64,000 bases of DNA from Eretmocerus hayati (taxonomy: Eukaryota > Arthropoda > Insecta > Hymenoptera > Aphelinidae), in contig CM056743.1 of assembly GCA_029851415.1 (NCBI GenBank), positions 248,001-312,000 on the forward strand, written 5' to 3'. Below the pieces are notes generated by a model. The model ran no database searches, was not told where the DNA came from, and was given only the letters and a program-made list of their open reading frames with translations. Position numbers and translations under genes: made by a program. Shown here in pieces: positions 33,285 through 54,896 of the stretch. Position 1 is the stretch's first letter. Each line of letters starts with the position of its first letter.

Positions 33285-34732
33285 GTGAAGTACGTATGGG
33301 GCACCGAGCAACAAGAATCCTTCGATAGGATTAAAGCGCTAGTCGCAACAGCTCCGGTTTTAGCCCAACCTTCATTTGAACCTGAACATCAGTTCTGTAT
33401 CCAGACCGATGCTTCATACACCGGTCTGGGTTCAGTGCCTACACAGATGATTGACGACGAAGAAAGAGTTATTTGCTTCGCTAGTTGTGTACTCACACGA
33501 GCAGAGGCAAACTACTCTGTCAGCGAACGTGAGGGCCTTGCAGTTCTATGGGCGATCCGCAGATGGCGCTGTTATGTCGAAGGATACCATTTTAAAGTGA
33601 TAACCGACCATAGTTGTCTAATGTGGTTATGCAACTTGAAGAATCCGACAGGACGTCTAGCAAGGTGGGCTCTCGAACTACAATCGTACTCGTTCGACAT
33701 AGAATACCGCAAGGGCAAGCTTAATGTCGTACCCGATTTTTTATCTCGCATGTATGAAGATGAAACAAGGGAGGGGTTAGCTGCTGTGCAACCATTGGTG
33801 CCAGAGACGCAAGATGCGTGGTACTTGAAAACGTATCAAGCAGTCTTAGAAAATCCTGAGGATTACCCACATATGAAGATCAAGGGGGGTCGATTATACA
33901 TCTGGCGGCCAAATCGCATACTAGAAGATCTCGTCTCAGACGACGACGCCTGGAAATTTGTTCTGGCCAGAGAGCAAAGGGCACAAGCCATGTCTGAAGG
34001 ACACTGCGAAGCAACGGCTGGCCATTTCGGCCGCACCAAAACAGTAGATCGTATTGCACGCTATTACTTTTGGCCCAGCCTATACAAGGATGTCGCGAAC
34101 TTTGTAAAAGGCTGTTCCATCTGTCAACAAGTAAAAGTGCAGCAACTACCTCCAGCGGGACTCATGGGTAAACGACAAGCAAAGAAACCTTGGTCAATGG
34201 TAGCTGCGGATTGTATGGGCCCATACGTTCGCACGGTCCAGGGCAACAAACATATCATCGTTTCCGTGGATCTCTTTACACGTTGGGTAGAGATCGTAGC
34301 AACGAGACGCGCTGATGCAAAAACTGTCATCAAGGAACTCAAGGAGCGAATTTGTATGCGCTCTGGTACGCCAGAAATTTTCCATGCGGATAATGGCAAG
34401 GAGTTCAAGAACAAAGAACTTGAGACGTTCTTGACAGAAAATGGCGTCAAACAATCATTTTGTCCAGTTTATCATCCGCAAGCAAACCCAACGGAGAATA
34501 AAAACCGTACGCTTCGCGCTAGGATAACAGCATTCGTGACTGAAAACCACAACAGGTGGGATGAAAAATCACCTGAGCTAATGTTTGCAATAAACACAGC
34601 CACCCAAGAATCGACAAAAATGTCTCCAGCGTTCCTAAACCTAGGAAGGAACCCCACACCTCCACATACGTTTCGTAGACAGGAGGATGTGGCAGCTGCA
34701 GAAGCCGCAGAGACCGAAGAGCTTGGAACATG
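33285..34732 (+). pseudogene. Ty3/gypsy pol: RNase H and integrase, cut by giant hAT
   Basis: The frame continues after one stop with RNase H (IQTDASYTGLG, a later Glu in VSEREGLAVLW, VITDHSCLMWL). Integrase follows, with an HHCC zinc region (HCEATAGHFG then CSICQQVK) and the DDE core (AADCMGPYV, FHADNGKEF, HPQANPTENKNR). At 34732 the integrase is interrupted by the transposon starting CAGGGTTGGCA. The open frame runs 235 bp into the transposon (to 34967), giving a foreign C-terminus. The true continuation is at 54897. The RT-RH-IN order and integrase after RNase H confirm the Ty3/gypsy class. Confidence 0.9.
34725..34732 (+). repeat. Target site duplication of giant hAT, left
   Basis: GGAACATG, repeated directly at 54889-54896. 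It belongs to the gypsy integrase sequence. Confidence 0.95.
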
Positions 34733-35814
34733 CAGGGTTGGCAGAGTCACGGACATACATCATGTCTGTCTCATGTCCGCGCAGACCAGGTCCGCCGAAA
34801 CTGTGTCCGCCCTTCCTGATTGGTCGAAAGCCCCCGCCGTATGCGCCGTGCATAAGCAAGGAGTAGGGGCGCTTCTGGCAGATGAAGTCGTTACGACAGA
34901 TGAAAATTATCTGAAATTATCTGGTCGTCTGCTCGCCTCAGCTCAGATGATTTCATTCACCGGATGATGATTTCGAGACCGATGATTTCGGCTATCCCGC
35001 GTGGTTGCTAGATGCGGTGTTTATGCGGGATAGTTCAGGACGCGTGCGGCGAAATTGTATATTTCAATTTTATGTAATGTAAAAATATATCAATCTTGCA
35101 GAAAAGTTGAATGGTGAGGTGATTACTATATCAACTGTGAGAGTAAAAGTAAAAGAGGTCAGGGAGAGCACAATTGTAAATTCACAGTCAGTAAGAGTCA
35201 GGTTACCCTAACCTCGTCAATTGTAATAATCCTGGTGACTGAACTTACTGATCCACTTTCAAAGCAGAAAATGAAATTTGGGACTCGAAAACTCATTTGT
35301 GTGCTTTTAGATGATTCAGACAAGCGTTAACCCCTTTGGAGTTGGTACATGTTAGAGACGTAAGTGGACTAATGCTCCTGGGTGTAACTCTCTATTGTTC
35401 ACATAGCCAGAATTGTTGAACATCCTCATATCTCAGTTAGTGAGTATTTAAGCTTTATAAAATTATAAAGCAATCGATTGTTGATTTTACAGCGCTTCAA
35501 TATTGCCCAAAGGTGAGTGGAGCATTATATTCAAATAGTTGACTCTGATTGCATACTAAATTCTACAACACTTGCACACAGAAAATATGCCAAAATTGAG
35601 TTGATGACCAGAACTGCCAAAAGCCTTTGAGAAATGTAAATAGCTGAAAACATACATGCTCATGCAAGGTAGGTGTACCTTTGCTGAGCCATTGCATTGG
35701 TCAACGTATAGCTAAACCCAGATCTGAATCTATTCCGAATGTCAGCTATTTAGAATCAGAACACAATTGGCTCTGAAATACCAAGAATACAATACGAGAC
35801 ATTGATTGTTGTTT
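34733..35814 (+). repeat. Left 1,082-bp terminal inverted repeat
   Basis: Matches 53807-54888 in reverse complement over its full length with no indel. By eye only two substitutions were noticed (near 34814 and 35795). The first 235 bp are open in the gypsy frame, and the equivalent frame is open in the right TIR (minus strand, 54888-54654). Confidence 0.93.
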
Positions 35815-37271
35815 ATCTTTGAATTGTCTCGTAATGTCTTGAAATTCAAATAACTGTCCTGAAATTGAGTTCCCCCTACTCAGCTCAGTACAGATTTGCT
35901 GATTCAATAATGTTCAGCGCCAAACTTCTCTCCACTTTCTTCAATCGGAACTTGAAAAATCCAATGACGCTCCAAGGATGATTCATCTTGATGGTATGCT
36001 TGATTGAACAGACAGGCATATTACAATACCTTCAACTTTTATTCGATTTTCATACCTTGTCTTCATTGGGCAACTTTCATAATTGAATGAACCCTCGTTA
36101 AAGTTGTCGAAATAGATGAGAGTATCATTCATAGGCAATATATTTCACTTCAAGATAGACTTTAATATAGATAATTTCATTTAGACTCAATGAAATATTT
36201 CTTCGATCTTTGAATGAGTTTTTTCACAGCTCATCTCCGAATGACAATCTCTTTGACATGTTACAGCGGTAGTAGATACGATTTATCCTTCAATGGAACG
36301 TTTAGAAGTTCTGGGGTAGTAAGAATTACTGACAAGGTTATTCATCACAGTCATTATATTGAAGATTCATTTGTACATATTTATTGTCATTGCATACAAA
36401 TTGTTGATATCAACTCAATTTTTTACTTAACCGTTCATACACGTCATCTGACATCAACGGTAGGTCGTAAACAAATTCATCTCGCGCATGCTACATACTA
36501 GGTCTAAAAGTACATATACAGGGTAATGCCTACTGACAAGAATGAAAATTATACCGCACATGGCTTGAATTGAGCCAGTGAAAATTCTTTTACTCTTGGA
36601 TTACTCTCACACACTCTCAAACTCGCAAAATTTTATCAACTTTATTACGGAAGACATAGAGATCCGGTACAAGAATTGTATTTTCCTCATCAAGTCGTAC
36701 TTGGTGCACAATCTTTGTGAACTAAAAGTAGGCCTGTTATCTCACATAATTCTAAATTATAATTGAAATAATTATTAAAACGATATCGCACATGTGGAAT
36801 ACATAATTTCTTGACTGATGAAGACAAAAAAAATACAGCTGCTCGAATAAGCTCGTACATTATCCCGTACCACACGTGCCGAGTGAGAGTGAGTATCTAC
36901 GTTAAATACCTCACCTATGCAACTAAGTCTACAGGGACCAATTCCTATTTTGATGGGACATTAGCAGAGAAACGTTGCATCAAAAGTAAATAGGCCTACC
37001 TAGATAAGCTACCTATAAGGCGATGACGCACCACACGCACGTAGGTAGACGAAACCTCTTTCCATCGACAGAAATCGTAATATTTTTTGTGGTAAATTGC
37101 TCTAATCTTTCTAACTGTGAATTAATCCGTTTTATGTACATATTATGTTGACGTACAGAACAAAAATAGTCGTATTTCAGTTTTGGTACGCAAGACTTGT
37201 AACACTAGAAGTTTGTTCCGGTCCAGGCCTGTCCGGTGCAATTTAATGAACCTATTGTTACGTTCGAATGA
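35815..37271. other. Internal giant-hAT sequence, non-coding
   Basis: AT-rich with only short frames (up to 95 codons) lacking motifs. Nothing recognised. Confidence 0.45.
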
Positions 37272-39051
37272 TATATGATGGATTCCACGCCGAAGCGACC
37301 TACGGGAAGTGGTCATTTCTCAGATTCTTCTTTAACCCTTTTCATTCGATTCTATCGCCCAAAATAGGAACTTCGGACCGCCTATGGGGTCCGAAAAAAA
37401 TTACTCCTCTCCATTGCGCGCACATCCGTGAACAGACCGAAAATTCGTCGTGTAAAAATCGATGCTCTTTTATTCACGAAAGTGGGAATATTTCGAGTTT
37501 TTGAATAGCTATCGATTTGCGGGTTGCGGCATCTGTAAGGGCATCAAAAAAACTATCGAAAACGTCGGAAATTTTTTTTGTTATTTGGGGGCCTCCCGAA
37601 GACAAAAAAGTGTTTTCGACAAAAACGTTAATTTCTCAAAAAGCCATTCTTTTGATTCTTCGAAAATCAGATATTTGACCTAAAAATTTGCGTTCTTTCG
37701 GAAAAAATGGGTTTCAGAGGAGTTTGGGGCGATCCAAGTGACTTATGAGCCATTTTGTTGAAAATTTGATTTTTCCGGTTTCAGAAAAAGGCGATTTTTT
37801 GCGCATGTGCACAACCGTAGTTTTTCGGCACCATTTTCAATGAAAAGCTGACAAAATTCCCCATAAAATGACCACACGCAGAGTTGAAATTCATGCACTG
37901 AAACGGGATCTGCAACGATTAATTATATCGAATCAAAATCACATAAAAATTCAGCCCTTTAACGCTTTCGGGGCACCTGCTGAGATGACACATTTACGAG
38001 ATCTTTTCGGTACTCATTTTTGAGTACGAAATCGCCCTAAAAAAATTCAGACCACATGTTTCATCGTAAAATTGTCTGAACTTTCAGAATATGCGATGGA
38101 AAATTCCGTTTGAGGCGAACTCGAGGTGCTACATTCAATTTTTTGCCAGAAAATACGATTTTTCACATTCAAAATTGCAAAAAATTGAATTTAGAACCTC
38201 GGGTTCACTTCAAGCGGGACTTTTCATCGCATATTTTGAAAGTTCAGACAATTTTACGTTGAAACCATGTGATTCGATTTTTTTTAGGGCGATTTCGTAC
38301 TCAAAAATGAGTCCCGAAAAGATCTCGTAAATGTGTCATCTCAGCAGGCGCGCCGAAAGCGTTAAAGGGCTGAATTTTCATGTGATTTTGATTCGATATA
38401 ATTAATCGTTGCAGATCCCCTTTCAGTGCATGAATTTCAACTCTGCGTGTGGTCATTTTATAGGGAATTTTGTCAGCTTCTCATTGAAAATGGTGCCGAA
38501 AAACTACGGTTGTGCACATGCGCAGAAAATCGCCTTTTTCTGAAACCGGAAAAATCAAATTTTCAACAAAATGGCTCATAAGTCACTTGGATGCCCCAAA
38601 CTCCTCTGAAACCCATTTTTTCCGAAAGAACGCAAATTTTTAGGTCAAATATCTGATTTTCGAAGAATCAAAAGAATGGCTTTTTGAGAAATTAACGTTT
38701 TAGTGGAAACCACTTTTTTGCCTTCGGAAAGCCCCCAAATAACAAAAGAAATTTCCAACGTTTTCGATAGGTTTTTTGATGCCCTTACAGATGCCGCAAC
38801 CCGCAAATCGATAGCTATTCAAAAACTCGAAATATTCCCACTTTCGTGAATAAAAGAGCATCGATTTTTACACGACGAATTTTCGGTCTGTTCACGGATG
38901 TGCGCGCAATGGAGAGGAGTAATTTTTTTCGGACCCCATAGGCGGTCCGAAGTTCCTATTTTGGGCGATAGAATCGAATGAAAAGGGTTAAAGAAGAATC
39001 TGAGAAATGACCCCTTCCCGTAGGTCGCTTTGGCGTGGAATCCATCATATA
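37272..39051. repeat. 1.78-kb near-perfect palindrome (foldback element)
   Basis: The left arm starts TATATGATGGATTCCACGCC and the right arm ends with its complement, GGCGTGGAATCCATCATATA. Complementarity continues with few mismatches almost to the centre near 38160. Arms are therefore about 890 bp with little or no spacer. TATA borders each end, so a TA-type target is possible. It encodes nothing recognisable and is best called a foldback transposable element nested in the giant hAT. Confidence 0.85.
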
Positions 39052-40039
39052 GCTTTGTAGCACTGATTTATCAACCAATATAATGTTGAACCAGTTAACA
39101 AGGTGAATCATCTCATATGCTGTCGATCCAAAGTGGTTCCGTGTACTCACGCGCGTTACTTGCACAACGTATAGGAAGACCGAACGACCAGGTTACGATA
39201 TTCACCACACTTGCAATAATTCCTCTCGACGTTTGAATGATATATTATCGAAAAGCGATGACTTGTTAGCTAAAAGGGTTCATAGGAAGCGCAGCCTTAA
39301 TTTCGAAGTGTGGCCTCGAAATTTGTGGATGCCCCTCTTATTTCTTATCTTGCAATTCACTCAACAGATCGTTAAACCCATATGGCGTATCGGTGAAAAT
39401 TTTGAAAAATAATATAAATAACAAAAAAACACTCACTGACTCGTCAAGATGAGACTAGCACTATTTGTCTGGCTCAAATTATGAAGTTTCTTGTTGAAAC
39501 GCCTCAGAACTCGAAAATTATGGATTAATCGAATTGTATGAGATTGCTGATTTGCTTGGATCTAAATTATATGCGTGGTAATAGTGCAAAACCAGTTGCA
39601 AAAGTCAATAAAGAATATCCATTCAAAATCACCATTGGTCAGCAATTTTTAAAATTCTTTTCCTTTTCCCAAAATTTTTCTCCGCTACTTTCACATAGCT
39701 TTTGATCGAATCAAACTTGTATGAGTCAGATTTTTCGGAAGCATCTGAATTTTCTCGAGTTTTCTGTTGAGGCGAACGTGAGAATTCAGAGCTTTGTCCC
39801 GGACAGAGGAACTGCTATGAATACTCCTGCATAAATTGACGAATTACAAGTACTGTACATTGATGTGAAGGATACGTGAAATGGGTTTGGCGATCGATTA
39901 AGCGAGTTGTGAGCATAAAGAATATAACAATTCAAGACTTCTTTTATCTAAAAGTGACGATGCCGATATCTTTAGCCACCACGATTTCTACCGATACTAC
40001 CACATTCGCATATTCATAATACTCTCGCTCTCACAAAAA
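39052..40039. other. Internal giant-hAT sequence, non-coding
   Basis: No gene supported. It lies 3' of the minus-strand frame 41485-40040 and may include its 3' UTR. Confidence 0.4.
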
Positions 40040-41485
40040 TTAGACTGAATCGAACATAATTGAACAATAGAGGTTTCTCGCATCACTATTGTGCTCAAAT
40101 TCAGTGTTGCCGAGAATGCATGCGACCTTGTGTGGGGGTAATTTTTTGGCAGCAGCAGGGATGGACAGCATGTGTAAAGCAAACTTGCTCATATCGGCAT
40201 TAAAAATTGCTGCTTCTTCCCAAAACTTGGTCGGATTCTCTTGGTTTCGTTGAAGCAGACTCCAGAATTGGCCTGTCTCCCCCATCACGTAGTGACCGAA
40301 CCCGGGACGTGCAGCTGTAGGTGCATTATCGAGTATAAATGCGATTGATTTATCTCTGAAGCCACTGAGATGTTGGAAGTGGCTCTTCTTTATGTACCGT
40401 ATGTCTAAATAATTAGCCATGACATGGACCGGATTCGGGTCTTCAGCAAAATATGATATGAGGTTGGGATTGATCAAGAGATCTTTGTGCTTTTCACGAA
40501 TATCAAATATATCTTGGAGTGCGTTTGCGGCAGTGTAAGAAGCCTGTTTAGTTTTCTCTAGTAATGACAGAATTACTGATGAATACTCGGTGAGTTTACT
40601 TAGACCTATCTTATCCGCGGTTGCCTTGTCAAACGTGAGAAACGACATAATCAAATCTCGGAAGGATGGAAATCGCATATAAGTTGGATTCTCATCACGG
40701 TTGACATTTTTCAGTCGCCCGACTCCCTCGTGCATGAGAAATCGCACCTCTTTAATATTCAACTCCTGACGAGCCAGCTCAACAGAATCATCGCAGAACT
40801 TTTCGAGCGTGGCTGGAGCATCAACTCCACGAGGCATATGAATTGAATCTATATAAACGTAATTGCCACCTTTGCTTATTGCAAAACTAAAAACTTGCTT
40901 ATTATTATTCGCACCCTGTGAAGTTACTATAATGTAAGGCCTATATTCAAAAGTACTTTGCAAAGTTCTTAATTCTATTATTGCTTGATCCAAAATCTTA
41001 GTCTTAAAATCATTGGTCTGTGGTACTGCGTAGTTAGCATCGAGAGACTCAAACAACTCCCGAGATACGTCACAATCTAACTCTGAAAAGTCTATTTGAT
41101 GTCGCACTGCAAACTTCAATAATTTAATATTTTGGTCATCAACGTTACGTGCTGTTCTTTGTCTATTCCTCCGATGAGCCGAATTGGCGTTGGCCTGAGG
41201 TCGTGGGTACGGATGTGAGCGTGAGCTTGACGGGAAATGTTTCGCCGGTGTAGAGATCGGTTGTGAGCGCGGCTGATGCAGGGCTGAACTTGGCTGAGCC
41301 GAAATCAGCTGCGGGAGTATTGGTTGATGCTGTGATGAATTCAGCAAGCAGCCTGATGTTGGCTGCGGCGACGAACCGATTTGTGGTAACATCGCCTGAC
41401 TGGTTGAAAACACCTGATGCCCATGCGATTCAGGCCTACCCACAGCCTGAGCCAATAATGGTTGTTGAGGTTGATTCACACACAC
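40040..41485 (-). CDS. hAT-like transposase-related protein (exon)
   Basis: The frame gives up to 481 residues. The first 110 are Gln/Pro/Ser-rich and low in complexity. The rest is compact: a region with YRPYIIVTSQGANNNKQ and FSFAISKGGNYVYIDSIHMP resembles the hAT catalytic N-part, and near the C-terminus PTKFWEEAAIFNAD and FALHMLSIPAAA resemble the start of the hAT dimerisation domain (fW...lA..lLsIPAss). The usual SERVFS continuation is missing, so the end is degenerate or spliced on. The frame begins after a stop, without ATG. Acceptor-like CAG sites lie near its start, and a BED-finger exon with a GTGAGT donor lies upstream at 42669-42450, so this is probably a downstream exon. The family call is tentative. 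Confidence 0.5.
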   Translation of the reverse strand: MCVNQPQQPLLAQAVGRPESHGHQVFSTSQAMLPQIGSSPQPTSGCLLNSSQHQPILPQLISAQPSSALHQPRSQPISTPAKHFPSSSRSHPYPRPQANANSAHRRNRQRTARNVDDQNIKLLKFAVRHQIDFSELDCDVSRELFESLDANYAVPQTNDFKTKILDQAIIELRTLQSTFEYRPYIIVTSQGANNNKQVFSFAISKGGNYVYIDSIHMPRGVDAPATLEKFCDDSVELARQELNIKEVRFLMHEGVGRLKNVNRDENPTYMRFPSFRDLIMSFLTFDKATADKIGLSKLTEYSSVILSLLEKTKQASYTAANALQDIFDIREKHKDLLINPNLISYFAEDPNPVHVMANYLDIRYIKKSHFQHLSGFRDKSIAFILDNAPTAARPGFGHYVMGETGQFWSLLQRNQENPTKFWEEAAIFNADMSKFALHMLSIPAAAKKLPPHKVACILGNTEFEHNSDARNLYCSIMFDSV

Positions 41486-42449
41486 GTCAGCCAGAGGAGT
41501 GCGATTTCCCTCGAAGCAAATTTTTCTGAAAGCAGTTGGAAAAATATGTGTATGAGTACGAGGACATTTTCATACGTGGAGGTGGAAAATGTTTCAGCCC
41601 TAAATTTCACTTTCGGAGGTCCTAAGATGGATTTTTCGCTATTTTGCAACATACGAAGTACGAATTAACCCCCGCACGAATGTATATATTCACACTTATC
41701 GGTATTACTAGTTCACAGGTAAGTCCGGCTGTTGCAGCCGAAGATATATAATTAAGCGCCATATTGCAACTTGAAGAAAATTCTGAGCGTTGTGATTCAG
41801 TAGCGGAATAGATGAATCATGAAAGCGTATACATTTCCAAATTCTGCCGAGGCTTATATTGAGCTTGACTACATTCGAAAATGAGACCGATTACTCAATC
41901 CAGATTCAACTGATGATACATCGGCGATATAATAAAATCAAACTCGTACCGTTGTGGATTGCTGGTGAAATTTCAAGCATCGGTTGTGGATCGATCTAAA
42001 TGAATGCTTATTGTGAGCATTGAAAACGATTTTCAAATTTTACTCGTAAAGAACCGGAACGAGGAAAGTTCTGTGTGGAAATTACTTAGATATCTCCGAG
42101 AAAATTTAAGAACGGCCGACGTACTAACTTTCAGAATAGTTGGAAAAATGTATTCGAAGTAACTCCAAATTGTGTACAATATGGCTATTTCTACGTAACT
42201 ACGAACATGATATTGAAAACGAAAATTTAAGATTAGATGGGTATACAATGGAACAGAAATACAAATTTTGAACAAGATAGGACGCATCTTGCTATCGAAA
42301 AGAGATCGAAAAAGGTTGAAAACTCTCGACATTTGTAACGCCTCGCTATCGTCATAATTTCGTGAAAAGTTCTTACAAGCAGTTTGCGATAAATTAAGGG
42401 CATAGAAAAACTGCTCCTGATGATGAAGTTGAAGATGAAAAAAGTACTC
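41486..42449 (-). other. Probable intron between BED exon and hAT-like exon
   Basis: The minus strand begins GTGAGTAC directly after the BED finger, a strong 5' splice site, and reaches pyrimidine-plus-CAG acceptor candidates near 41530 and 41450-41380. The exact acceptor cannot be chosen without transcripts. Confidence 0.4.
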
Positions 42450-42684
42450 ACCGATGGCTTCGCATGTGTCTGATACCGTGACCAGTCATCACGACTTTGC
42501 ACAATCCACATTGACCCGCTACTGTTTTGCTACCGATCTTGCCCTTATTGTACTTGCCGTTGCTTTTGGTAGTTTCGCGAACCTCGATAAAATTGTACAT
42601 TTGCCATTTCGTCAGAGTTGTAGCAGGGGTTTTGGTGATCCCGTGACCCATGGCCGGACCCGGATCCATGTTGATTTATCCTGC
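42450..42684 (-). CDS. BED-type zinc finger exon
   Basis: On the minus strand an acceptor-like TTTTTTTCAAATGCAG precedes an exon whose ATG at 42669 opens a 74-codon frame. It contains W-x-x-Y-N-F followed by C-G-L-C and H-x3-H-x3-H spacing (QCGLCKVVM, GIRHMRSH), the pattern of a BED zinc finger, the DNA-binding module at the N-terminus of many hAT transposases. The sequence then meets GTGAGTAC, a good donor. The next frame on the same strand is the hAT-like exon 41485-40040, so a BED-hAT gene is the natural reading. It could instead serve another protein of the element. Confidence 0.6.
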
Positions 42685-43139
42685 ATTTGAAAAAAACCAC
42701 ATCAGAAATTGACTTGATAACGGCAAAAAAATTGGTTATCGTGCTTTTGATACTTGTCAATCAAGAGATCTTTGTAAGATCCATTCATTCAATGCATGTT
42801 GACTTCAAAATAATGTAACTCGCGAATTGTTTAATCAACACTAAGTATTATCTAAAATACATTTCCATTATATCAACTTTAAAGCAATCTATTTTTCGAA
42901 AAGTCATTTTTTATAACGAAAATTTGCGTCCAACTGTGAAAATGTATGTGTCAAATTTGTACTCACTCGGATAGCTCTGGTGATGCAGCAAAGCTTACTT
43001 TCGATGCAGGGAGATGCTTTCTGGTTAAGATCTATGCACGAAATGACTTACTTTGATAGTTTGGCACTGCTGGTTTACGCAAATCACAAAGGTGGGGAGT
43101 TAGCTATCCTTGGAGTAGTGTGCAAGTACAGGTGAATCC
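42685..43139. other. Non-coding stretch upstream of BED exon
   Basis: AT-rich. It may be an intron or 5' flank of the minus-strand BED-hAT gene. Nothing specific seen. Confidence 0.4.
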
Positions 43140-43480
43140 TTCACTTGCTTTGCAAAGGATTCGCGGGCGCGAAAGATCGTTAGTGTGCATGGCGGGTGTC
43201 GCCGGGGAAAATCGTCGCGACCGTCTTTTGTCTGCAAAGGGCTGGGACGGGCTGTTTCCCCGAGTATTACCGCGCCAGCATTTATATTATAGCCCTCAGT
43301 ACTTGGGAAGTCGCGCTGATAATCCCCGGGTGTCGCGAGGAATTGTATCAGTCTCGTCGTTTTGGACGACGGGCCTTTACTTTGGACGGCGTGACGCCCG
43401 CCGATTTATGGGCGCTGACAGCCGCCGTATCTTTTGTCGTTTCAACACTCTTTGTCGAATGAAATTGGAGAGCGGGATTA
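43140..43480 (-). promoter_or_regulatory. CpG/GC-rich block, candidate promoter
   Basis: About 340 bp are markedly richer in GC and CpG than everything around them. On the minus strand a TATAATATAAATGC stretch (43278-43291) is a TATA candidate. The block lies 0.5-0.8 kb upstream of the BED exon on the same strand. The 134-codon plus-strand frame across it is a by-product of the GC content. Confidence 0.35.
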
Positions 43481-43790
43481 TTTTGTGTACTTCTGTCGCT
43501 TATAACAACACTAATATATATTAAAATCTGGATACACTCTCAACTTAGCGATATGCGTACACTTGCTTCGGCGAAAAATAGTTATGTGCAGAATGCATCA
43601 GGCACATCCTGGTTGCACGTGTTAATCCACGCCTAAGTTTCTCACCTTCTTTTGACACGTACTTTTCTAACTTGCATTTTCCATTTTACTATACACTTTC
43701 CGTGAAAGTTCATTTCGCGCACTCTGTGTCGGCATTTACTCACAGTTTATCAAAAAGTTTATATATCTCGATACACGGGGGTAAAACCTA

Positions 43791-44563
43791 AGGTAACTGT
43801 GCCTAATTTGTCCCCATTCAAGTTCTCAAATGTATGCACCCGCAGACTCTGCCGAGCATTTTTTTCACATTTGTTACGTTAAAATATGAGGAAATAAACA
43901 TTCTGGACCTATACTGTATGACCCGCGCATTTTTTACAACAAAAAAGTGGTTTTCGGTACTTTCGACTTCTTTTTTGTTAGTCACAAAAAGCTATGCCAA
44001 ACAAAATTGGTGTGATCAATTCCAACGTACTTTAATTAATTTTCTTTGTCTTCGTCCCAACTTTACAATACTTTTTGCAGAATTGCAAAATTCGATTTTT
44101 AGCCAATTCTACGCTCATATTACGAGAAAAAGTGCAGTGTTCCTAATTTGCCCCTATACTCTTATCCAAACTCGTTCCTCGCTCCATTAAGATGCATCAA
44201 TTTACCTCAAAAAATTTAAAAGGGGGTAAAAAAGCTACAAAATGAGCTAAAGTACGTCTCATTTGGAGGTCTGGGAGCCGAGATATCCCGATTATACGAA
44301 AAACCCGTACAATCCCATGAAAATAGGCCTCTTTTCCCTGTGAGGGCAAATTAGGAACACACTGTTGAAAACTCGCAGAAAATCTTCTTTCGCGAAAATC
44401 ACGATATCTCGGCTTCAATTTGTTGAAATTAAACGTACCTTAGCTCATTTTCAAGGTCTTGAAACAAGCTTCAAAATGAGCTAAAGTACGTTGAAAATTA
44501 TGGAGATGAGTTGAAATGGCGAGCAAAACAAAAGTAGTGGGGGCATATTAGGCACACTTACCT
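43791..44563. mobile_element. MITE flanked by TA
   Basis: The ends are AGGTAACTGTGCCTAATTTG and the complement of AGGTAAGTGTGCCTAATATG, flanked by TA at 43789-43790 and 44564-44565. It is 773 bp, non-coding, with internal TGAGCTAAAGTACG repeats. A fragment of the same family starts at 44693. Confidence 0.75.
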
Positions 44564-44692
44564 TATTTACCACACCCTTGTATCGAAATGTACTGATGAG
44601 CGATAAATATGTATAGTTCGTGTTCATTAGCCTGATTTTGGTAGCCACCTCGATCAAATTTACATATACAATATAATCCAAGCGAGGTTGGA

Positions 44693-44960
44693 AGGTAAGT
44701 GTGCCTAATATGCTCCCACTACTTTTGTTTTGCTCATAATTTTGGCTCTCCTCAATATTATTCAACGTATCTTAGCTTGTTTTGAGACTGATTTTACGAA
44801 CTTCAGTTCACGAAAATACGCGGAGAAAGTACGTGGGTAACGTATGAAAAATCCATATTTCGGAAAATTGTGATGGCTCGTATCCGAATCGTCCGAATGG
44901 AACTTAGCTAAGCTCATTTTTAAGGTCTTGGAACAAGCCTCTTATCATCCTAACGTATTT
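44693..44960. repeat. Partial second copy of the 43.8-kb MITE
   Basis: Starts AGGTAAGTGTGCCTAATATG, followed by the same CTCCCACTACTTTTGTTTTG block found inverted at 44515-44545. No far end was found. Confidence 0.55.
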
Positions 44961-46658
44961 ACAGGTGTAAGTGTAAGACGCACAAAAAAATCGGGGTTTC
45001 CACAGTCTTATGACTTTAAATCAAGACTCTTGTTTTCTCGCTAGCATAATATGAATATGCCAATCAGAGTCCCTCATAGTGTGCAAGATGAGTATTGCAT
45101 ATCACCACAACTTGGTAGAAATATACAACAGCAATCACATAGGCACCTGATTAGAAATCTCACCCACACTCGTTGCATTGCACATGGTTACTTATTGTCA
45201 TCCACTTTGCCCCGAGCTATAAATTTTAACTACAACATCTCCTTCACTGTAAGCAAAAGCTACCGATGCTCACCTCTGCAACGGCGAGATCGAGCAAATC
45301 GTTATCAGCCGATATCAGCTGGAGTAGGTTGTTCGTCGTTTCTCCAAGTATGATACAATCTATCAACCTGCGCGAATTTTTTTCACGCTGGTTGATAGGT
45401 TCTTTCAAAACCAATTTGAAGCTTGATTCCGCAGCATTGATCTCCGTTACACTTTCAAAAGTTTACGTATTCACCCGACTTGCATGAAATTTTACGAAGC
45501 TTCAGATTGATTTTGCGAGAATCTATCAAGCTGCGCGCAAGAAATTGTAAAGAGATCTTGAAGTGCTTTGGGAACGCTACAAAATGAGCTGGAGTAGAGT
45601 AGTTTTAGACAAAGGAGATCGGAGTAGTCGAGTGATGAAGATCGAAATTTTGCTTTTCATGAAGCTCAATGAATGAGACTTTTGATACGAATATTTGTCC
45701 TGTTTATGAGATAGCTTTCAATGCACATCTATGCTGTACTTGTGAAAATCTATTTTGTTTCAGAGAACTTTAGCTATCGTGTAAAATATCACATTTCTAA
45801 TCATTTTGCGATTGTTGCATATAAGCTCGTTTCGTAACCTGCGGCACAAGAACGAGAGAAAATCTTCTCTAAATCGAGTACGATTCGAAAAATAAGAAGA
45901 AATCGATGGGTGGTGCAATGATCACATTCAACTCCGAGTACGTTTGAGAGGACTCGACCAAAACTTCGGGATATTGATTTCGGACGTCGGACAAGATTAA
46001 AGTAATAACGAATGATACAGTTCGAGGTAGAAAATATATTTCAATGTACTCTGCCCTTTTGCTATGCATACTTCAGTCGTGAATAAACAATGATATATAC
46101 AATGTATATATTATACATACTTCAAATGTTACTGACTTACTCGAAATGGAATCATTATCTCATCTCTTTATGTAAAAAATACTTTGTATGAACATCATGG
46201 AAAATTGAACAAAAACCTTTATTGAACACAAGTTGAACACAATTTATCAATAATTATTTATGGATTTCTTCACCTCCTACGGAGCTTCCTGATGACCAGG
46301 AACGGAGGCCTGTAGAAATCCCATAATGATGGCAAAATAGATGTTATAACTATGCCTTGAGAGCCATTTTGAGTAATGTCTCAAACAAAAGTCTTTCCTC
46401 GGTTTTTGGCATTTCTTGCGCATGAGAATAGTTGAATGCCTCTGAAAGTACTTTTTAATCGATAGCTGACTAAATTTCCTTGGAAATGATCCCACGACGA
46501 AGCCGATTTGGTGCACTACAACCAGAGCTGTGATTGATTCCAAAAAGTGGAAGAGTACAAGGTATCACATCTGTGGTTGATACTTCGAGTTGAAGGTCGT
46601 CGTCACTAGTTCTTCATACTTTATTATCACAGATAAGCGTAACGTATTTTATTGGCTT
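44961..46658. other. Internal giant-hAT sequence, non-coding
   Basis: No motif-bearing frame. The last part (about 46200-46658) may be the 3' flank of the minus-strand transposase frame. Confidence 0.4.
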
Positions 46659-48155
46659 TCAATCTTCTTCAGGGTTGAGGTTGAATGGAGCTCTTTGTTG
46701 TGGCATCATTCCATGTCTCATTGCGTAGTATAGGTCCAGCAATAAGCTGGACCTCTCGTTTCCAAGGCGGTTCCTATAAATGTCATGGATGAAAGTCCAG
46801 GTCGAGAACAGGCTCTCAATCATTGCTGTTGAAGCCGGTATGACTAAGACTTTTATAGCACATGCACTCAATTGCGGGTACCGCTGGTTCATCATACCCC
46901 AGAACGGTACAGGATCGTCCTCAAACCCAGCGGCGATCAATTCATACTGCCCAATGTTGTCCAAATAATGTCTGAGTTCCTCAAATATACCATCGCCAAA
47001 ATGTTGACGTAGATATGTTTCTGCCACTTGTCTTTGTGCAGGGCTCAATTGCCGTCCTTGATAGGTTGGATGCAACAGATTTGCGAGAAAACCTACGTGC
47101 GATGTCCGACGATGGATGAGAATTCCTAACCTGTTTTCAATCAATTCGTTTAGCTCGGGCCTGTCCATGTCAATGAAATCTCTGCGCACATTAGTCCATT
47201 CTTGAACAGCACGGGCTATGCTCACTCTGGGGCCTTGGCATATATTTATCAAGCGGCAAATTGGGTTCAATGCCTCACGTGTCGAGACAAGCCATCTTTC
47301 AAAGGCTAGACTATGCAGCGTAACCCGAACGGCATCAGGGATTTCCACGTCGTCCATCCTGCTGATGAGTCGGAGACGATTCAAATTGTTCAAAATTGTT
47401 AGAATCGTTCTCAACAAGTAGCAGAAACGAGTCTCGGAGTACATCTGGAGTCTTGTGCCCCCTAATTCCATCAATAACTCTTCGTAACGTGGTCTGCGAA
47501 AGAGCGTTACGACGTCCCTCATTTCGTTCACTCTTTCTTGATCAACAAAAGCCTCGATAACCAGATTGGCACTGTGGCTAGAGCAAGTACCGTGTAGCAC
47601 TGGAAGGCCATCTACAGTGAAGACGTTTCCAGCTGCGCCAACTATGGCGTATTCATTGTCAGTGATGATCGCGTAAACTCTTGCTCGATAATCACGGGCT
47701 ATCTGACGTATAACATCCTGAATGATCTCAGTCAGGTTGACTATCGTTGCTTCCTGCGAAGACATATTCACGAAACATATGAATACCTGATCAACGCGTA
47801 TGTTCCTGGCAGTGAAAACTAAATATTTCCTGTTAGCTACAGAGTTTGTCCATCCGTCGATCAGCAAGACAACATCAGTGTCTTCAAGCAATCTTGTTTT
47901 TTCTTCAACCCATTGATCGTGAAGGCGATTGAGGATGGATTCTGCAAGAGTTCGCCGGCCTGGCGGATTGTACACTGCACCGTTCCCTGCAGCATAATGT
48001 CCGAACTGAATCAGAGCTTGGACGAAGGCTATGAAGTTTTCATTCTCCACAGTTCTGAACGAAATGTTGCAAGAAAAGAAGAATCTAGCCAACATGAAGT
48101 TTAAATATAGAACCATGTCTATATGTCGAACGTTTCCAAAATCCATGTTATCCAT
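46659..48155 (-). CDS. hAT transposase (catalytic and dimerisation regions)
   Basis: A 498-codon open frame starting at ATG 48155. It shows the hAT order: VVLLIDGWTN at about residues 95-104 (first catalytic Asp in the DGWT motif), AIITDNEYAIVG near 165 (second Asp), HGTCSSHSANL near 190, MYSETRFCYLL near 245 (the R-W/F region), and a C-terminal dimerisation domain with FWGMMNQRYPQLS, VIPASTAMIESLFS (third acidic Glu) and RNRLGNERSSLL. hAT proteins usually have an N-terminal BED finger; none precedes this frame, though an acceptor-like TTATTATTTTCCACAG lies about 60 bp upstream. The frame has no stop or shift, so it could be functional. It is the best candidate for the transposase of the surrounding 20-kb element. 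Confidence 0.9.
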   Translation of the reverse strand: MDNMDFGNVRHIDMVLYLNFMLARFFFSCNISFRTVENENFIAFVQALIQFGHYAAGNGAVYNPPGRRTLAESILNRLHDQWVEEKTRLLEDTDVVLLIDGWTNSVANRKYLVFTARNIRVDQVFICFVNMSSQEATIVNLTEIIQDVIRQIARDYRARVYAIITDNEYAIVGAAGNVFTVDGLPVLHGTCSSHSANLVIEAFVDQERVNEMRDVVTLFRRPRYEELLMELGGTRLQMYSETRFCYLLRTILTILNNLNRLRLISRMDDVEIPDAVRVTLHSLAFERWLVSTREALNPICRLINICQGPRVSIARAVQEWTNVRRDFIDMDRPELNELIENRLGILIHRRTSHVGFLANLLHPTYQGRQLSPAQRQVAETYLRQHFGDGIFEELRHYLDNIGQYELIAAGFEDDPVPFWGMMNQRYPQLSACAIKVLVIPASTAMIESLFSTWTFIHDIYRNRLGNERSSLLLDLYYAMRHGMMPQQRAPFNLNPEED

Positions 48156-48434
48156 GGCGTAGGGCTGTGGTTGCGATTAAATTCGAGAAGTGATGTGGGC
48201 TGTTGTGAAGCCTGTGGAAAATAATAATGGATGATAGCACTTGACAAATGAGAACGCAGTATCTATACTCTTTAAAAAATTTTTTGAATTTGCACCAAAA
48301 TTTTAATCCTTTATTCGCCACGTTTCGCCATCAAGAATTAAATCGGCTGGTCAAATTATCAACTAACTATTCATATATTTCTTACTTTACCAGATAGTTG
48401 GATTGTCAAGCATGTGACGAAGTGGAAGATCTGA
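48156..48434. other. 5' flank of the hAT transposase frame
   Basis: Contains the acceptor-like site on the minus strand (about 48213) and otherwise AT-rich sequence. Confidence 0.4.
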
Positions 48435-49262
48435 CAATGAGTCCCCTGCTGATGATAATTTCGAGGATCCCATGGGACTTCGTGGAACCTGGCCCTGGTA
48501 AAATATGTAATTTTTATATTTTGCAAAATTTTGCACCGCAGACGTGCAGCATACAAGTTTTGAACATTTTGCCTCCGGTAGACGAAGTGGTTGATACATG
48601 GGGAGTAAAGAATAGATGCTACATGAATTTTGATCTCGATCTCTGAATGATTACGAATATGGGATTAGTGAATATCGAAGAATATTCATATGTTTGTGAA
48701 TAAACCAGGCCATGAAAGATAGTTTGGATACTTCTTCCAATCCCATCATGAGAACTCGTTTAATTCGCGTGGAGAAGTTCTCAAGAACCTAAGATTATGT
48801 ATAAAACATCATTGCTACGAGTCCTTATCATTAGATGACTCAGTATCTACACGTTCTCGAAATGAAACCCACGACATGTGTCACTCTGAGCATTGTTGTT
48901 CACTTGATCTGTTGACTCGTGACGACATCATAGGCATCTTCTCTCGGCTAGAGGCACATTTTGAGAGAAGTGACGGGATTGGTTCTCGATGTTTGATTTT
49001 TTTACACTCTTGTAGTATCAGTCGATTTCAAATATTCATATCCGAAATCATTCAGGATCAGAACTCACGTAGCATCTATTCTTTACTCCCCATGTATCAA
49101 CCACTTCGTGGGCTGGAGGAATACTGCTCGAAACTCGTATGCTGCACGTCTGCGGTACCAAATTCATAAAAATGTAGAAATTGAATATTTTACCAGGGCC
49201 ATCAGGTCCCACGAAGGCCCATATGGGATTCGACGAAATTATTTTCAGCAGGGTCATATTGC
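48435..49262. repeat. Foldback repeat with 410-bp spacer
   Basis: Arms 48435-48640 and 49050-49262 are inverted copies sharing GCAGACGTGCAGCATAC and a stretch containing GAAGTGGTTGATACATGG and GAGTAAAGAATAGATG. No coding content; probably a MITE. Confidence 0.7.
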
Positions 49263-50894
49263 CGGAAATCCTACCGTAGGTACTTCGGGCAATGATAGAG
49301 TCGGAAATTGAACTCGAATTTCTCATTAAATTCATGTGATCCTCGTGAGGTACATAAACACTAAATACGTTTTTTTCTCACAAGTTTGCAGAGGTGTCGT
49401 CGACGTTTATTTCTATTTATTAATGAGAACGTACGAAGAATATTATTTTTCTGACCCTAAACTATCTTGCGGACTTAACCAATTACCATCTCATGGGTCT
49501 CTTATTATACCCATACTAGAACAGTCGGTGGATTTTTCATGTGGCCCATCCGGATACAATACCCGCCAAAGCGTTTCCCCAAATGGATTATGGACCGGAA
49601 AGGCTTGCGGGCGCCCCAGTGATATTTTTTCCGTTTATTTTCATAGAAACATGAAGAAACTTGTATTTCTGACACAACGATGTCATCCCGAGACTGAGAC
49701 CCAAGTATCCATGTCACGGGTCGCGTATTAATAACCATGCCAGGATTGATTGAATTTTCGACAAGCTGGCTGAAGTTTTTACAAGAATGTTTTTTTTTCA
49801 GTGTAACTCAGACCGCAACATTGTGAAGGACACCCGTCAAACTGTTCGCGTTTTGCTTCCTCTAAAGAGAAAGCTTTGTTTTTAGCCCAACGAAAATTTG
49901 ATCGAATTTTTCATTAAAATCGACATATTCTTCAACAAAATTCCTTTTATCGAAAAAAGCCTTATACCAAATCTCTTTCTCTCGCCAAAAATGTATCAAT
50001 TGTAGGTAACATTTCTCCTCCTAATGGCCTTCCAAATCTGCCAGCTACTCATCTTTGCACCCCTCTGTCCGTGTTTGTGTGTGTGTGTATGTATCTTGTT
50101 TTATACCGGACACGCTTTCTCTTTTACTGTTCACCTAATCAACTTTTGGCTTTCTACAAGTAGTACAGAATTCAATTTCTCAGAGCCCAGTGATTTGGCA
50201 CCTTTCGGCTCCCAGTCAAATTTGATCCATGGTCTTTTTCAAGCACAAGTGCTCAAATTTCGACTTTTGATACATAAATATCTTCTTGTCACACACTCTC
50301 ACAACGAATTGAGTCACCTAAACTACGAGTTTGTTCTGCACGATCTATCGATTGATTGACACGGAAATTTCATTCAATCTGTACATATCTCAAATTATCG
50401 GAAAAATCAAAAATTTCACTAAAAATTTCATCTTAACCCTTTTCAAACCCACTGCATCCAAATTCTGTCTCAACCAAACATTAGATATCATCCAAAAAAC
50501 CTCAGGCTAGATTGCCCAAATCGCTCAAAAAAGCTTCCTTCAAAGGATAACTGCAAAAATTATGGAAAATTTTTCTTAATATTCATTTTCTCCTCGTGTC
50601 ATCCTTCACCACTCATTCATCTCAATTTTAATGACCTAATGACTTACTTATATGCCATTCTGAATCGATTGATTGATACCAAATTTCCTTGAAATCCGTA
50701 GAACATTATCCAAATGAATTTTTTTTTCGCGAAAAGAAAAGTTTCACCAAGTAATCCAGTCTAACCATCTTCAAACAAACTGTATCGAAATTCCGTCCCA
50801 ACCAAACGATAGATATTGGTGGAAAATCCTGCCCTTAGGAGACCCGAATTTCTCTAAAATTCTTTCTCAAAATAATAACTCGAAATATAGAATA
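49263..50894. other. Internal giant-hAT sequence, non-coding
   Basis: Frames up to 131 codons without motifs. Nothing recognised. Confidence 0.4.
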
Positions 50895-51102
50895 CCGTCA
50901 AATTGAGTAGCTTTGATACAACTTCAAAAGTCTTGCACAACGCTCCGGGAGCAACTCGGTTAATTTTACTGCACTCCAATCAAATTCTGTTATCAATTCT
51001 AATACTATGGAATCCTATTCGTTGCTCCTGGAACGCTAGGACAAGCCTTTTGAGGGTGTACCAAAGTTACCCCACATATACCAAAGTTACACAGTTTGAC
51101 GG
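50895..51102. mobile_element. Short mariner-type MITE flanked by TA
   Basis: Starts CCGTCAAATTGAGTAGCTTT and ends AAAGTTACACAGTTTGACGG between TA dinucleotides (50893-50894 and 51103-51104). It is a 208-bp internally deleted relative of the element at 4326-5160. Confidence 0.75.
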
Positions 51103-51303
51103 TACTTTCTTATTCGTTATGATTATTATTATATAACGCCGCGAGAAAGCATTCTCCTAATTACTTTCAGCAGCGTATTTTTTTCTAAAATAAATGTACA
51201 ATATTCGAAGTGGAAACCGTACTTTCAGATCCGCGAATAAATTGAAACGCGTGATATAGACAATATTTGAGCTTTCAGTGAGCCAAATTTCGCACAGAAA
51301 ATA

Positions 51304-52097
51304 CAGTACCGTGCAAAAATTCCTGAACGGGGGTATGAAATCCTCTCTTGCAAAAACGACGATTGCTCGAGCCCAGATCAACGTAGAGGAATTTTGAAAA
51401 AAGCATCTTAAAGATGAGATAAAATGCTAACTTATTACGGTCTTCGATTTTTCTTTCAGCCCTTTTTGGTACCTTAAATAACTGATGTAATTTCAAGGAT
51501 TTCGAGAAAAAACCCGTTTTTACTCTATCGGCTGTAATTTGGACGCGGATAAAGATAGAACAATTTCGCAAAAAGCATCTTGTAGAGCGGAAAAAATGCC
51601 ATTTGCAATGATTTGTCGATTATTTTTCACGTTGTGTGAATAAGAGTGTGAAAGCTCTCAAAGTAGCCAGATTCTCGGATTTTCAATGAAATACGTGTAA
51701 AAACAGCAAAAAACGGCAAAAACTACGGTTTTGGGTACTTTGAGAGCTCTCACACTATTATTCACACGACGTAAAAAATGATCGAAAAATCATTGCAAAT
51801 GGCATTTTTTCCGCTCTTCAAGATGCTTTTTGCAAAATTGTTCTATCTTTATCCGCGTCCAAATTACAGCCGATAGAGTAAAAACGGTTTTTTTCTCGAA
51901 ACCCTTGAAATTACATCAGCTATTTGAGGTACCAAAAAGGGCTGAGAGAAAGATTAAAAACCATAAGAAGTTAGCATTTTTTCTCATCTTTAAGATGCTT
52001 TTTTCGAAATTCCTCTACGTTAACCTGGGCTCGAGTAATCGACGTTTTTGCAAGAGAGGATTTCAAACTCCCGTTCAGGAATTTTTGCACGGTACTG
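51304..52097. mobile_element. Foldback MITE flanked by TA
   Basis: The ends are CAGTACCGTGCAAAAATTCC and its complement, with TA at 51302-51303 and 52098-52099. Arms of about 370 bp mirror each other around a centre near 51700. Mariner/Tc1-type target; no transposase. Confidence 0.82.
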
Positions 52098-52783
52098 TAC
52101 GTTGCTTGTTAAAAACTGCTTACAGGTTCCACCTCGAATAAGTTTCAACTCATCGCACGATTTTTCACATGGATCGTAACTCTCACCTCGTAATTGTTGA
52201 CCCCCGTGATTCTCTTCTACATATTCCTTCGACAGAAACGTGGAACTGATCGCTTCGCGAGCTGTTGATGGAAAAGCTAATTTGTGGTGACCTCCGAAGA
52301 ACAAACTCTAGCGCGTAGTTTGTGTTGCTCGATACCCACAACTGTAAGCACAATAGTAGAGTGTGTGATTGTGTAAATATAATTTTGCAGATTGTGTACC
52401 CGAAGGAATAGAGATAATGAGTTCGGCATAATGAAGCTGGATCGGCATTTGGTATATTATTTCTCAAGATTTACAATTCAATCGCATGAAATTCAAGTGA
52501 ATTTGAGAATAGAAAAAAAATTGATAGATGACAAAGCCTGAACGATTGCGGACCAAATTGGCGTATTCCACGAGAAAATTGAACGGCATCGGGAAACTTA
52601 GAAAGTAATGCGGATGGATTGCTAAAGATTATATTGAGATAAGGCATCGGGCTCCCTGTGCCAATTTCACAATAGCTTTTCTATTTGTTGGACCTAGTAA
52701 TACCTAAGAATTGTATACATCCGGGAGGCAAGTCGATTTCCTCATATTTTTCATCAATCGATTTTGGAAGAATGTATGTACAT
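52098..52783. other. Internal giant-hAT sequence, non-coding
   Basis: Nothing recognised. Confidence 0.4.
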
Positions 52784-53426
52784 TAGGGTGTGCGTTATTT
52801 CGCAACTTTCGATTTTACACGGCACCATCGTGGATTGTCGATCTTTGATATAAAAAAATAGGCAAAAACTTTCGCCGCGCCTCGCACGACGTGTCCTGCT
52901 TTGCTCGAACCTTATTTTAACATTGAAAAGCCTATGCTGAGAATTTTGCCCTTCCAACCCTTCGTGTCTCTAAGATCGCTGATTTGTCATGGCTCCTTTT
53001 AAAACTGACAAATTAATAGAATACATTATTTTCACGTAAAATTTCACGAAGAACACGATAAAATTGTCAGTTTTGACTTCCAAAGTGACCCCGGTGTGAT
53101 ATCAGTGATTTTTTGAAAGAATCGCTAATATCACATCGGGGTCACCTTGAAACTCAAAATTGACAATTTCATCGTGTCCTTCGTGAAATTTTACGTGAAA
53201 ACGATGTAGTCTGATGATTTTTCAGCTCTAAAAAGAGCCATGAAGAATCACAGCCATCTCAGAGACGCGGAGGGTCGATAGGGCAAAATTCTCAGCACAG
53301 GCTATTCAATGTTAACAATTGTATTCGAGCGGCAAAGCAGGGCACGCCGTACAGGGCGCGGCAAAAGTTTTTCCTTATCATTTCGTATCGTGCAAAATCG
53401 AAAGTTGGGTAGTAACGCACACCCTA
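52784..53426. mobile_element. hAT-type foldback MITE
   Basis: 643 bp starting TAGGGTGTGCG and ending CGCACACCCTA, with the 8-bp direct repeat ATGTACAT at 52776-52783 and 53427-53434. The arms are long and imperfectly complementary (for example ACTTTCGATTTTACACG versus its mirror). TIR and duplication length point to hAT mobilisation. Confidence 0.8.
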
Positions 53427-53560
53427 ATGTACATACATAGAAAAATGCATCGAGCATGAAGGCATCTCATCTTCTCTGATTCAAAGAAAATGTCGAGTGG
53501 GGATACTGGTTCATCATCCTCCGTTGCGATGGAATCATCGTTTATAAATTTATCAAGTGT

Positions 53561-53804
53561 GGCTTTTGGCAATTCTGGTCATCAACTCAATATTGGCATA
53601 TTTTTTGTGTGCAAATGGTGTAGAATTTAGTATGCAATCAGAGTCAACCATTTGAATATAATGTTACACGCACTTTTGGGCAATACTGAAGCGCTATAAA
53701 ATCAACAATCGATTGCTTTATGATTTTATAAAGCTTAAATACTCACTAACTGAGATATGAGGATCTTCAAAAATTCTGGCTATGTGAACAATAGAGAGTT
53801 ACAT
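53561..53804 (+). repeat. Internal direct duplication of part of the right TIR
   Basis: This 244-bp block matches 53996-54239, inside the right TIR, in the same orientation at roughly 90% by eye. It stops within three bases of the inner boundary of the TIR (53807). The left end of the element has no such extra copy. Confidence 0.8.
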
Positions 53805-53806
53805 CC

Positions 53807-54888
53807 AAACAACAATCAATGTCTTGTATTGTATTCTTGGTATTTCAGAGCCAATTGTGTTCTGATTCTAAATAGCTGACATTCGGAATAGATTCAGATC
53901 TGGGTTTAGCTATACGTTGACCAATGCAATGGCTCAGCAAAGGTACACCTACCTTGCATGAGCATGTATGTTTTCAGCTATTTACATTTCTCAAAGGCTT
54001 TTGGCAGTTCTGGTCATCAACTCAATTTTGGCATATTTTCTGTGTGCAAGTGTTGTAGAATTTAGTATGCAATCAGAGTCAACTATTTGAATATAATGCT
54101 CCACTCACCTTTGGGCAATATTGAAGCGCTGTAAAATCAACAATCGATTGCTTTATAATTTTATAAAGCTTAAATACTCACTAACTGAGATATGAGGATG
54201 TTCAACAATTCTGGCTATGTGAACAATAGAGAGTTACACCCAGGAGCATTAGTCCACTTACGTCTCTAACATGTACCAACTCCAAAGGGGTTAACGCTTG
54301 TCTGAATCATCTAAAAGCACACAAATGAGTTTTCGAGTCCCAAATTTCATTTTCTGCTTTGAAAGTGGATCAGTAAGTTCAGTCACCAGGATTATTACAA
54401 TTGACGAGGTTAGGGTAACCTGACTCTTACTGACTGTGAATTTACAATTGTGCTCTCCCTGACCTCTTTTACTTTTACTCTCACAGTTGATATAGTAATC
54501 ACCTCACCATTCAACTTTTCTGCAAGATTGATATATTTTTACATTACATAAAATTGAAATATACAATTTCGCCGCACGCGTCCTGAACTATCCCGCATAA
54601 ACACCGCATCTAGCAACCACGCGGGATAGCCGAAATCATCGGTCTCGAAATCATCATCCGGTGAATGAAATCATCTGAGCTGAGGCGAGCAGACGACCAG
54701 ATAATTTCAGATAATTTTCATCTGTCGTAACGACTTCATCTGCCAGAAGCGCCCCTACTCCTTGCTTATGCACGGCGCATACGGCGGGGGCTTTCGACCA
54801 ATCAGGAAGGGTGGACACAGTTTCGGCGGACCTGGTCTGCGCGGACATGAGACAGACATGATGTATGTCCGTGACTCTGCCAACCCTG
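53807..54888 (-). repeat. Right 1,082-bp terminal inverted repeat
   Basis: Reverse complement of 34733-35814, ending TGACTCTGCCAACCCTG before the target duplication. Near identity of the two TIRs implies a young insertion or gene conversion. Confidence 0.93.
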
Positions 54889-54896
54889 GGAACATG
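54889..54896 (+). repeat. Target site duplication of giant hAT, right
   Basis: GGAACATG, a direct copy of 34725-34732. Confidence 0.95.

Follow-up and report, generated by a model that had tools for sequence, protein, structure and literature searches.

Can a hAT transposon move 20 kb of DNA as a single unit? Members of this superfamily are classically small, carry one gene, and are popular as tools for gene transfer. The question is raised by a 20,156-bp segment of the genome of the whitefly parasitoid Eretmocerus hayati, which occupies positions 34733–54888 of the 64,000-nucleotide stretch analyzed here (the window; C3:248001–312000 of the 692-Mb assembly). The original prediction, made from the letters of this stretch, had proposed one giant hAT able to move at least 20 kb. 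Our reading, to which we assign a probability of about 0.7, is that the segment is a complete 20-kb cut-and-paste hAT from a two-gene giant group, with a catalytic transposase and a dead, probably DNA-binding partner encoded by a second open reading frame (ORF2). The giant element itself is well supported; from the features of the two proteins, we infer a division of labor between the transposase and ORF2.

The borders of the element were delimited by self-comparison of the window (Table 1). The two terminal inverted repeats (TIRs; 34733–35814 against 54888–53807) showed 2 mismatches (positions 77 and 1064) and no indels, and the similarity dropped to background at position 1083. This confirmed the mirror ends of 1,082 bp claimed earlier. 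The exact 8-bp duplication, GGAACATG, was likewise found on both sides. By a simple calculation, an exact 8-bp match would arise by chance at a pre-defined pair of ends in about 1 of 65,536 cases; elsewhere in the window, the same octamer is also present at 11115 and 12794. The element reads CAGGGTTGG...CCAACCCTG, and CAGGG-type ends of this kind are typical for hAT. The ORF entering the left end carries RNase H, H2C2, and rve domains, so that the insertion site lies in a gypsy pol frame, as had been predicted. As empty sites, we inspected five other gypsy loci (L040–L044) from a list of 40 matches that included the window itself. All five had contiguous flanks, which overlapped in exactly one copy of the 8-bp sequence. 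The duplication, the inverted ends, and the five contiguous gypsy loci lead us to regard the insertion as real and precise.

The transposase is encoded on the minus strand by a stop-to-stop frame of 505 residues (46659–48176), in which DUF659 (7e-10) and the hAT dimerization domain (1.3e-8) were recognized. The AlphaFold2 model had a mean predicted local distance difference test score (pLDDT) of 84.1, and its best Foldseek match was the Hermes transposase (3.5e-11). Residues D107, D173, E454, C198, and H201, numbered along the stop-to-stop frame, were invariant in eight aligned relatives. By analogy with Hermes, we take the first three to be the catalytic acids and C198/H201 to be the CxxH motif. 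The protein combines a hAT fold, candidate DDE acids, CxxH, and a C-terminal dimerization domain. The earlier hAT assignment, based on the 8-bp duplication and the CAGGG ends, is thus joined by an internal hAT transposase, empty sites, and copies with collinear interiors. No finger was found in the transposase ORF, and a motif scan upstream gave none that was convincing (5.5 kb in the window element and in family A, 3.9 kb in family B; these families are described below). The frame of the window copy is closed by a stop eight codons 5' of the transposase ATG. A protein search with the transposase returned seven metagenome proteins at 31–40%, and an NCBIfam scan of the transposase and ORF2 gave nothing useful.

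The annotation lists ORF2 as a hypothetical protein of 567 aa (QAD02_000006). Judged by its sequence, it is a paralogue that has diverged from the transposase and has a predicted Hermes fold, a finger-like N-terminus, and no catalytic triad. A PDB sequence search with ORF2 gave nothing useful. Protein searches yielded 3 and 5 matches, all in Eretmocerus hayati; since the method detects only sequences that have exact words in common, relatives elsewhere may have been missed. The block upstream of ORF2 has a G+C content of 49%, as compared with 40% for the element. Among the best 40 of 164 candidates, it matched just three relatives' loci (the two C2 tandem copies and C4:65.56 Mb), at 73–74%. 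This block is probably the promoter or leader region of ORF2, perhaps shared among the relatives.

The genome contains further giants, and the predicted gene content of the window element makes it one of the two-gene hATs in a diverse giant group in Eretmocerus hayati. Families A and B contain both genes in convergent orientation. Family C, which has no ORF above 146 aa, is apparently a non-autonomous giant. Two 30.7-kb copies abut head to tail on C2 within one outer duplication; both genes lie on the same strand, and the ends of the copies agree at 1090/1090 and 910/910 bases. At the inner junction of this tandem, the last four bases of one end are missing and one extra base is present. The tandem may have originated by dimer insertion, by end-to-end joining, or as an assembly effect.

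Table 1. Positions of the features discussed; coordinates refer to the window unless a contig is named.
Feature	Position	Length	Strand	Basis or remark
Left target-site duplication GGAACATG	34725–34732	8 bp	.	Sequence and empty gypsy sites
Right target-site duplication GGAACATG	54889–54896	8 bp	.	Sequence and empty gypsy sites
Left TIR, begins CAGGGTTGG	34733–35814	1,082 bp	+	Self-comparison of window
Right TIR	53807–54888	1,082 bp	-	Self-comparison of window
Left part kept in 9,829-bp copies	34733–40005		+	99.75%
Middle part kept in 9,829-bp copies	44283–45723		+	45435–45660 resembles dispersed repeat
Right part kept in 9,829-bp copies	51777–54888		+	
ORF2 exon 1 (boundary approximate)	42451–42669		-	CxxC/H finger-like sequence
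ORF2 exon 2 (boundary approximate)	40040–41527		-	Putative catalytically dead paralogue of hAT transposase
Block 5' of ORF2	42898–43444		.	Similarity to relatives' loci
hAT transposase, uninterrupted ORF	46659–48155		-	Conserved ATG at 48155; DUF659 and Dimer_Tnp_hAT
Foldback	37272–39051		.	Arms 95% complementary; also in 9.8-kb copies
Foldback	51302–52099		.	Related 323-bp stretch at deletion junction of 9.8-kb copies
Foldback, right subterminal	52860–53375		.	81% arms; also in 9.8-kb copies
Family A	C1:169441918–169460776	18,859 bp		117-bp ends; duplication 7/8 bp
Family B	C2:63257082–63278219	21,138 bp		Ends ~2,690 bp at 99.55%; exact duplication AATACACT
Family C (L025 + L026)	C2:112548567–112565011	16,445 bp		1,725-bp ends; exact duplication CTTGTCAA
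Two abutting 30.7-kb copies, head to tail (L027, L029, L030)	C2:7749225–7810599	61,375 bp		One outer duplication CCGGTGGT

The association of the two genes was then assessed across the genome. The transposase query gave 72 matches (from the best 85 of 102 candidates). Manual merging reduced these to 53 loci, not counting one weak match (E 3e-4) that lay on an ORF2. For ORF2, two queries with 31 and 23 matches were merged into 32 loci. A transposase locus was located within 25 kb in 25 of these 32 loci (chance expectation, approximately 0.4%); the two genes were convergent in 21 of the 25 pairs. The four same-strand pairs (the window, the two C2 tandem copies, and C4:65.55 Mb) are the closest relatives. 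The window pair, with its genes 5.1 kb apart, falls within the proposed two-gene group. The independent pairs number approximately 23, because the C2 tandem copies and the mirror pair at C4:98.26/98.29 Mb were each counted twice. Viewed from the transposase side, ORF2 was detected within 25 kb for 21 of 30 near-full-length loci (E below 1e-70), a set from which two broken loci near C2:164.85 and 164.91 Mb were excluded. The ORF2/transposase sets at C4:98262635–98289527 are mirror images with identical scores, which suggests an inverted duplication of about 27 kb.

Closer relatives of the window element were sought with its TIR, and 45 matches were listed from the best 40 of 72 candidates; the family copy counts are therefore lower bounds. 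The original prediction had looked to such a search for other full-length copies. Collinear copies were indeed obtained, one of 9.8 kb with a duplication of its own, but no second full 20-kb copy occurred among the TIR matches listed in the assembly. A pair of mutually identical copies of 9,829 bp (0/9,829 differences), one on C4 and one on C2, matches the window in three collinear parts at 99.5–99.8% and lacks both genes. Of these two copies, only the one on C4 has an 8-bp duplication of its own. A 4.6-kb locus (L011) is a further deletion form with a shortened right end and a real interior, L013 is a solitary end, and a 3.4-kb copy (L014) has 470 bp of end in common with the window element and no duplication. 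Eight elements of 2.3–3.8 kb share just ~293 bp of end and a ~510-bp block with it. Ends bounding only short, unrelated elements had been named beforehand as the pattern that would speak against a giant; these eight resemble that pattern, whereas the 9.8-kb and 4.6-kb copies share the real interior of the window element. Among 13 other copies checked, eight have their own exact 8-bp duplication, and L010, L011, and L014 have no exact one. At L017 (C1:43578200–43586350), related elements of 3.6 and 3.8 kb lie 418 bp apart; the outer flanks are both GGCGAGAG, the inner flanks are unmatched, and the pair looks like a composite element that could have moved as one unit.

The stretches absent from the 9.8-kb copies were inspected for traces of insertion. 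At their ends, the longest duplication-like matches were 5 and 4 bp, which is at chance level. The 9.8-kb form was rejected as the ancestral state, because both genes sit in the absent stretches. Within the interior segment 45400–46600, the first 324 bases match the 9.8-kb copies, and approximately 225 of them also belong to a dispersed repeat. The remaining part of the segment matched only itself among the best 40 of 1,539 candidates.

With these results in hand, we considered whether the 20 kb ever moved as a unit. The full form was found once, which weighs against our reading, and the movement of all 20 kb therefore rests on one insertion together with the related 16–31-kb giants. To this extent, the original proposal of one giant hAT is strengthened by the precise insertion, the transposase, and the relatives, and is held back by the single full form. 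A smaller hAT might have entered gypsy and grown in place by nested insertions, as the foldbacks inside the element and the size of the other family copies (at most 9.8 kb among the matches listed) could suggest. We consider this history very improbable: the stretches that would have been added contain both genes, their 5- and 4-bp border matches reflect chance rather than insertion duplication, and long-ended relatives with 8-bp duplications exist at 16.4–21.1 kb, in addition to the 30.7-kb copies. Near-identical kilobase inverted repeats are a known hazard for assemblers, which they can mislead. An assembly artefact or a chance pairing of repeats was nevertheless rejected as scarcely credible in view of the exact duplication, the five empty gypsy sites, and several independent copies; the published assembly, according to the accessible part of its report, was built from HiFi reads with hifiasm (PMC10482854).

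For the two-gene giant, we propose that the transposase would cut at the CAGGG ends and insert with an 8-bp stagger, while ORF2 would join the complex as a non-catalytic subunit and bind the ends via its N-terminal finger. The long ends would provide many binding sites and thereby aid the synapsis of ends 10–30 kb apart. Shorter copies would arise by internal deletion through faulty gap repair and be mobilized in trans. The fold of ORF2, its lost acids, and its finger-like N-terminus are the reasons for viewing it as a needed or end-binding partner. End binding in hATs is normally performed by a BED finger on the transposase itself. In the available text on Tgf2, a transposase with a truncated finger showed no end binding in vitro, and gene transfer decreased from 56% to 21–25% (PMC4890040). 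This loss of end binding makes a finger on the dead partner plausible; the residual transfer makes strict partner dependence less likely. An obligate two-component hAT, in which a fingerless catalytic transposase would depend for end recognition on a dead, finger-bearing paralogue, usually convergent and a few to ~20 kb away, is accordingly a tentative extension, to which we give somewhat less than an even chance.

Several findings speak against the partnership. In the second catalytic column, D is kept in 2 of 17 ORF2s, and three have E. Pfam recognized no family above threshold in ORF2 and its relatives, zf-BED included. The model of the ORF2 finger is modest (pLDDT about 52–70), and the finger match of family A is weak (E 3.7e-4) and that of family B negligible (E 1.9). 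An acceptor-like site was seen by eye 5' of the transposase ATG, so a spliced finger exon is possible, although the window copy has an in-frame stop between the two. One of the 25 pairs (C1:126.2 Mb) depends on a 49-residue transposase match, and 7 of the 32 ORF2 loci have no transposase nearby. Conversely, no ORF2 was detected within 25 kb of 9 of the 30 near-full-length transposase loci (11 of 32 when the two broken loci are counted).

The main rival makes ORF2 a repressor encoded by the element itself, a dead transposase relative that limits copy number by poisoning the complex or by occupying the ends. A protein that lost the catalytic triad and kept the fold could serve in this way, and the constraint on ORF2 is weaker: between the window element and a 30.7-kb relative, the ratio of nonsynonymous to synonymous substitution rates (dN/dS) was 0.39 for exon 2 (494 codons) vs 0.098 for the transposase (504 codons). 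The accessible part of the Tol2 work offers a precedent, since Tol2-S inhibits Tol2-L excision (PMC4818426), but Tol2-S is a fingerless form and thus nearer to the transposase here than to ORF2. We consider repression unlikely, given that ORF2 recurs next to transposases only ~34–55% identical to that of the window, a longer persistence than expected of a self-limiting gene, and that no finger was found on the transposase.

The remainder of the element was inspected for other cargo. Two large and four smaller ORFs (6 of the 18 element ORFs of at least 100 aa) were scanned for domains. No viral or cargo gene was recognized in these six, and Pfam on the four smaller ones was empty. Mavericks/Polintons are defined by a protein-primed DNA polymerase, a retroviral-type integrase, and a 6-bp duplication. 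The element has an 8-bp duplication and no Maverick-type domain in the scanned ORFs, and none of six viral-contig pattern matches encodes a transposase relative; a Maverick-like or viral element was thus rejected. Internal RNA genes were also rejected, as all Rfam matches fell below gathering scores and mostly concerned microRNA families on the foldbacks; the window contains no tRNA. Duplications of at least 6 bp were absent from the ends of the foldbacks at 37272–39051 and 51302–52099, and one doubtful 6-bp match was seen at 52860–53375. The gypsy and transposon region is flanked by a 4-kb inverted pair (23635–27655/61191–57170) of 92.5% identity, and a further inverted pair (55307–55597/61668–61378) is 99% identical.

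A hAT group that moved at 16–31 kb and conserved a dead transposase copy would show how cut-and-paste transposition scales in size. If the partnership holds, it would be a natural case of one transposase splitting its labor between two proteins after duplication, and mixed oligomers on kilobase ends would synapse ends 16–31 kb apart (61 kb if the tandem moved as one) and allow a giant size to persist through long evolutionary times. Both ideas could be examined with the window copy and its relatives in standard excision assays. No giant two-gene hAT with a dead transposase paralogue was found in the accessible portions of the open-access literature, the search having covered neither subscription papers nor preprints. 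The available parts of the E. hayati genome papers make no mention of giant hATs, and a term search found "hAT" absent from the main text of a giant-transposon review (PMC6431247).

The window element resembles Hermes, Ac, Tol2, and Tgf2 in its 8-bp duplication, CAGGG-type ends, DDE transposase with the Hermes fold, and C-terminal dimerization domain. It differs in size (20 kb vs ~4–5 kb for Tol1, Tol2, and Tgf2), and the delimited giants differ in their ends, mostly of 1–2.7 kb (117 bp in family A), in their second conserved gene, and in having no visible transposase finger. Tol1 reportedly tolerates ~22 kb in experiments, for which our literature search found no confirmation. Published hATs, as far as the accessible texts go, measure ~4.4–4.7 kb (PMC10175614; PMC4890040). 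Grapevine hATs have ends of 8–23 bp; some of these elements are termed unusually long, and unlike for the window element, no second transposase-derived gene is mentioned in the available part of that paper (PMC2528002). Galileo (P superfamily) and Foldback share the unusually long inverted ends (PMC3688188); Galileo has a transposase of another superfamily and uses a THAP domain. Teratorn, Mavericks, and Starships are also very large mobile units, from which the present element is set apart by the lack of a viral or cargo gene in its six scanned ORFs. The partner of the PIF transposase is a Myb-like protein. PIF/Harbinger elements, as the available text states, have a second ORF besides the transposase (PMC2528002) and are similar in encoding the second protein separately; they belong to another superfamily, and the second protein here appears to be a dead transposase copy. 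In maize, according to the accessible text, the hAT ends of Ac/Ds macrotransposons mobilize as much as 100 kb (PMC3260210), so giant size alone is not wholly new for hAT chemistry. Those macrotransposons are pairs of separate elements, whereas the window giant is a single two-gene element bounded by kilobase ends of its own.

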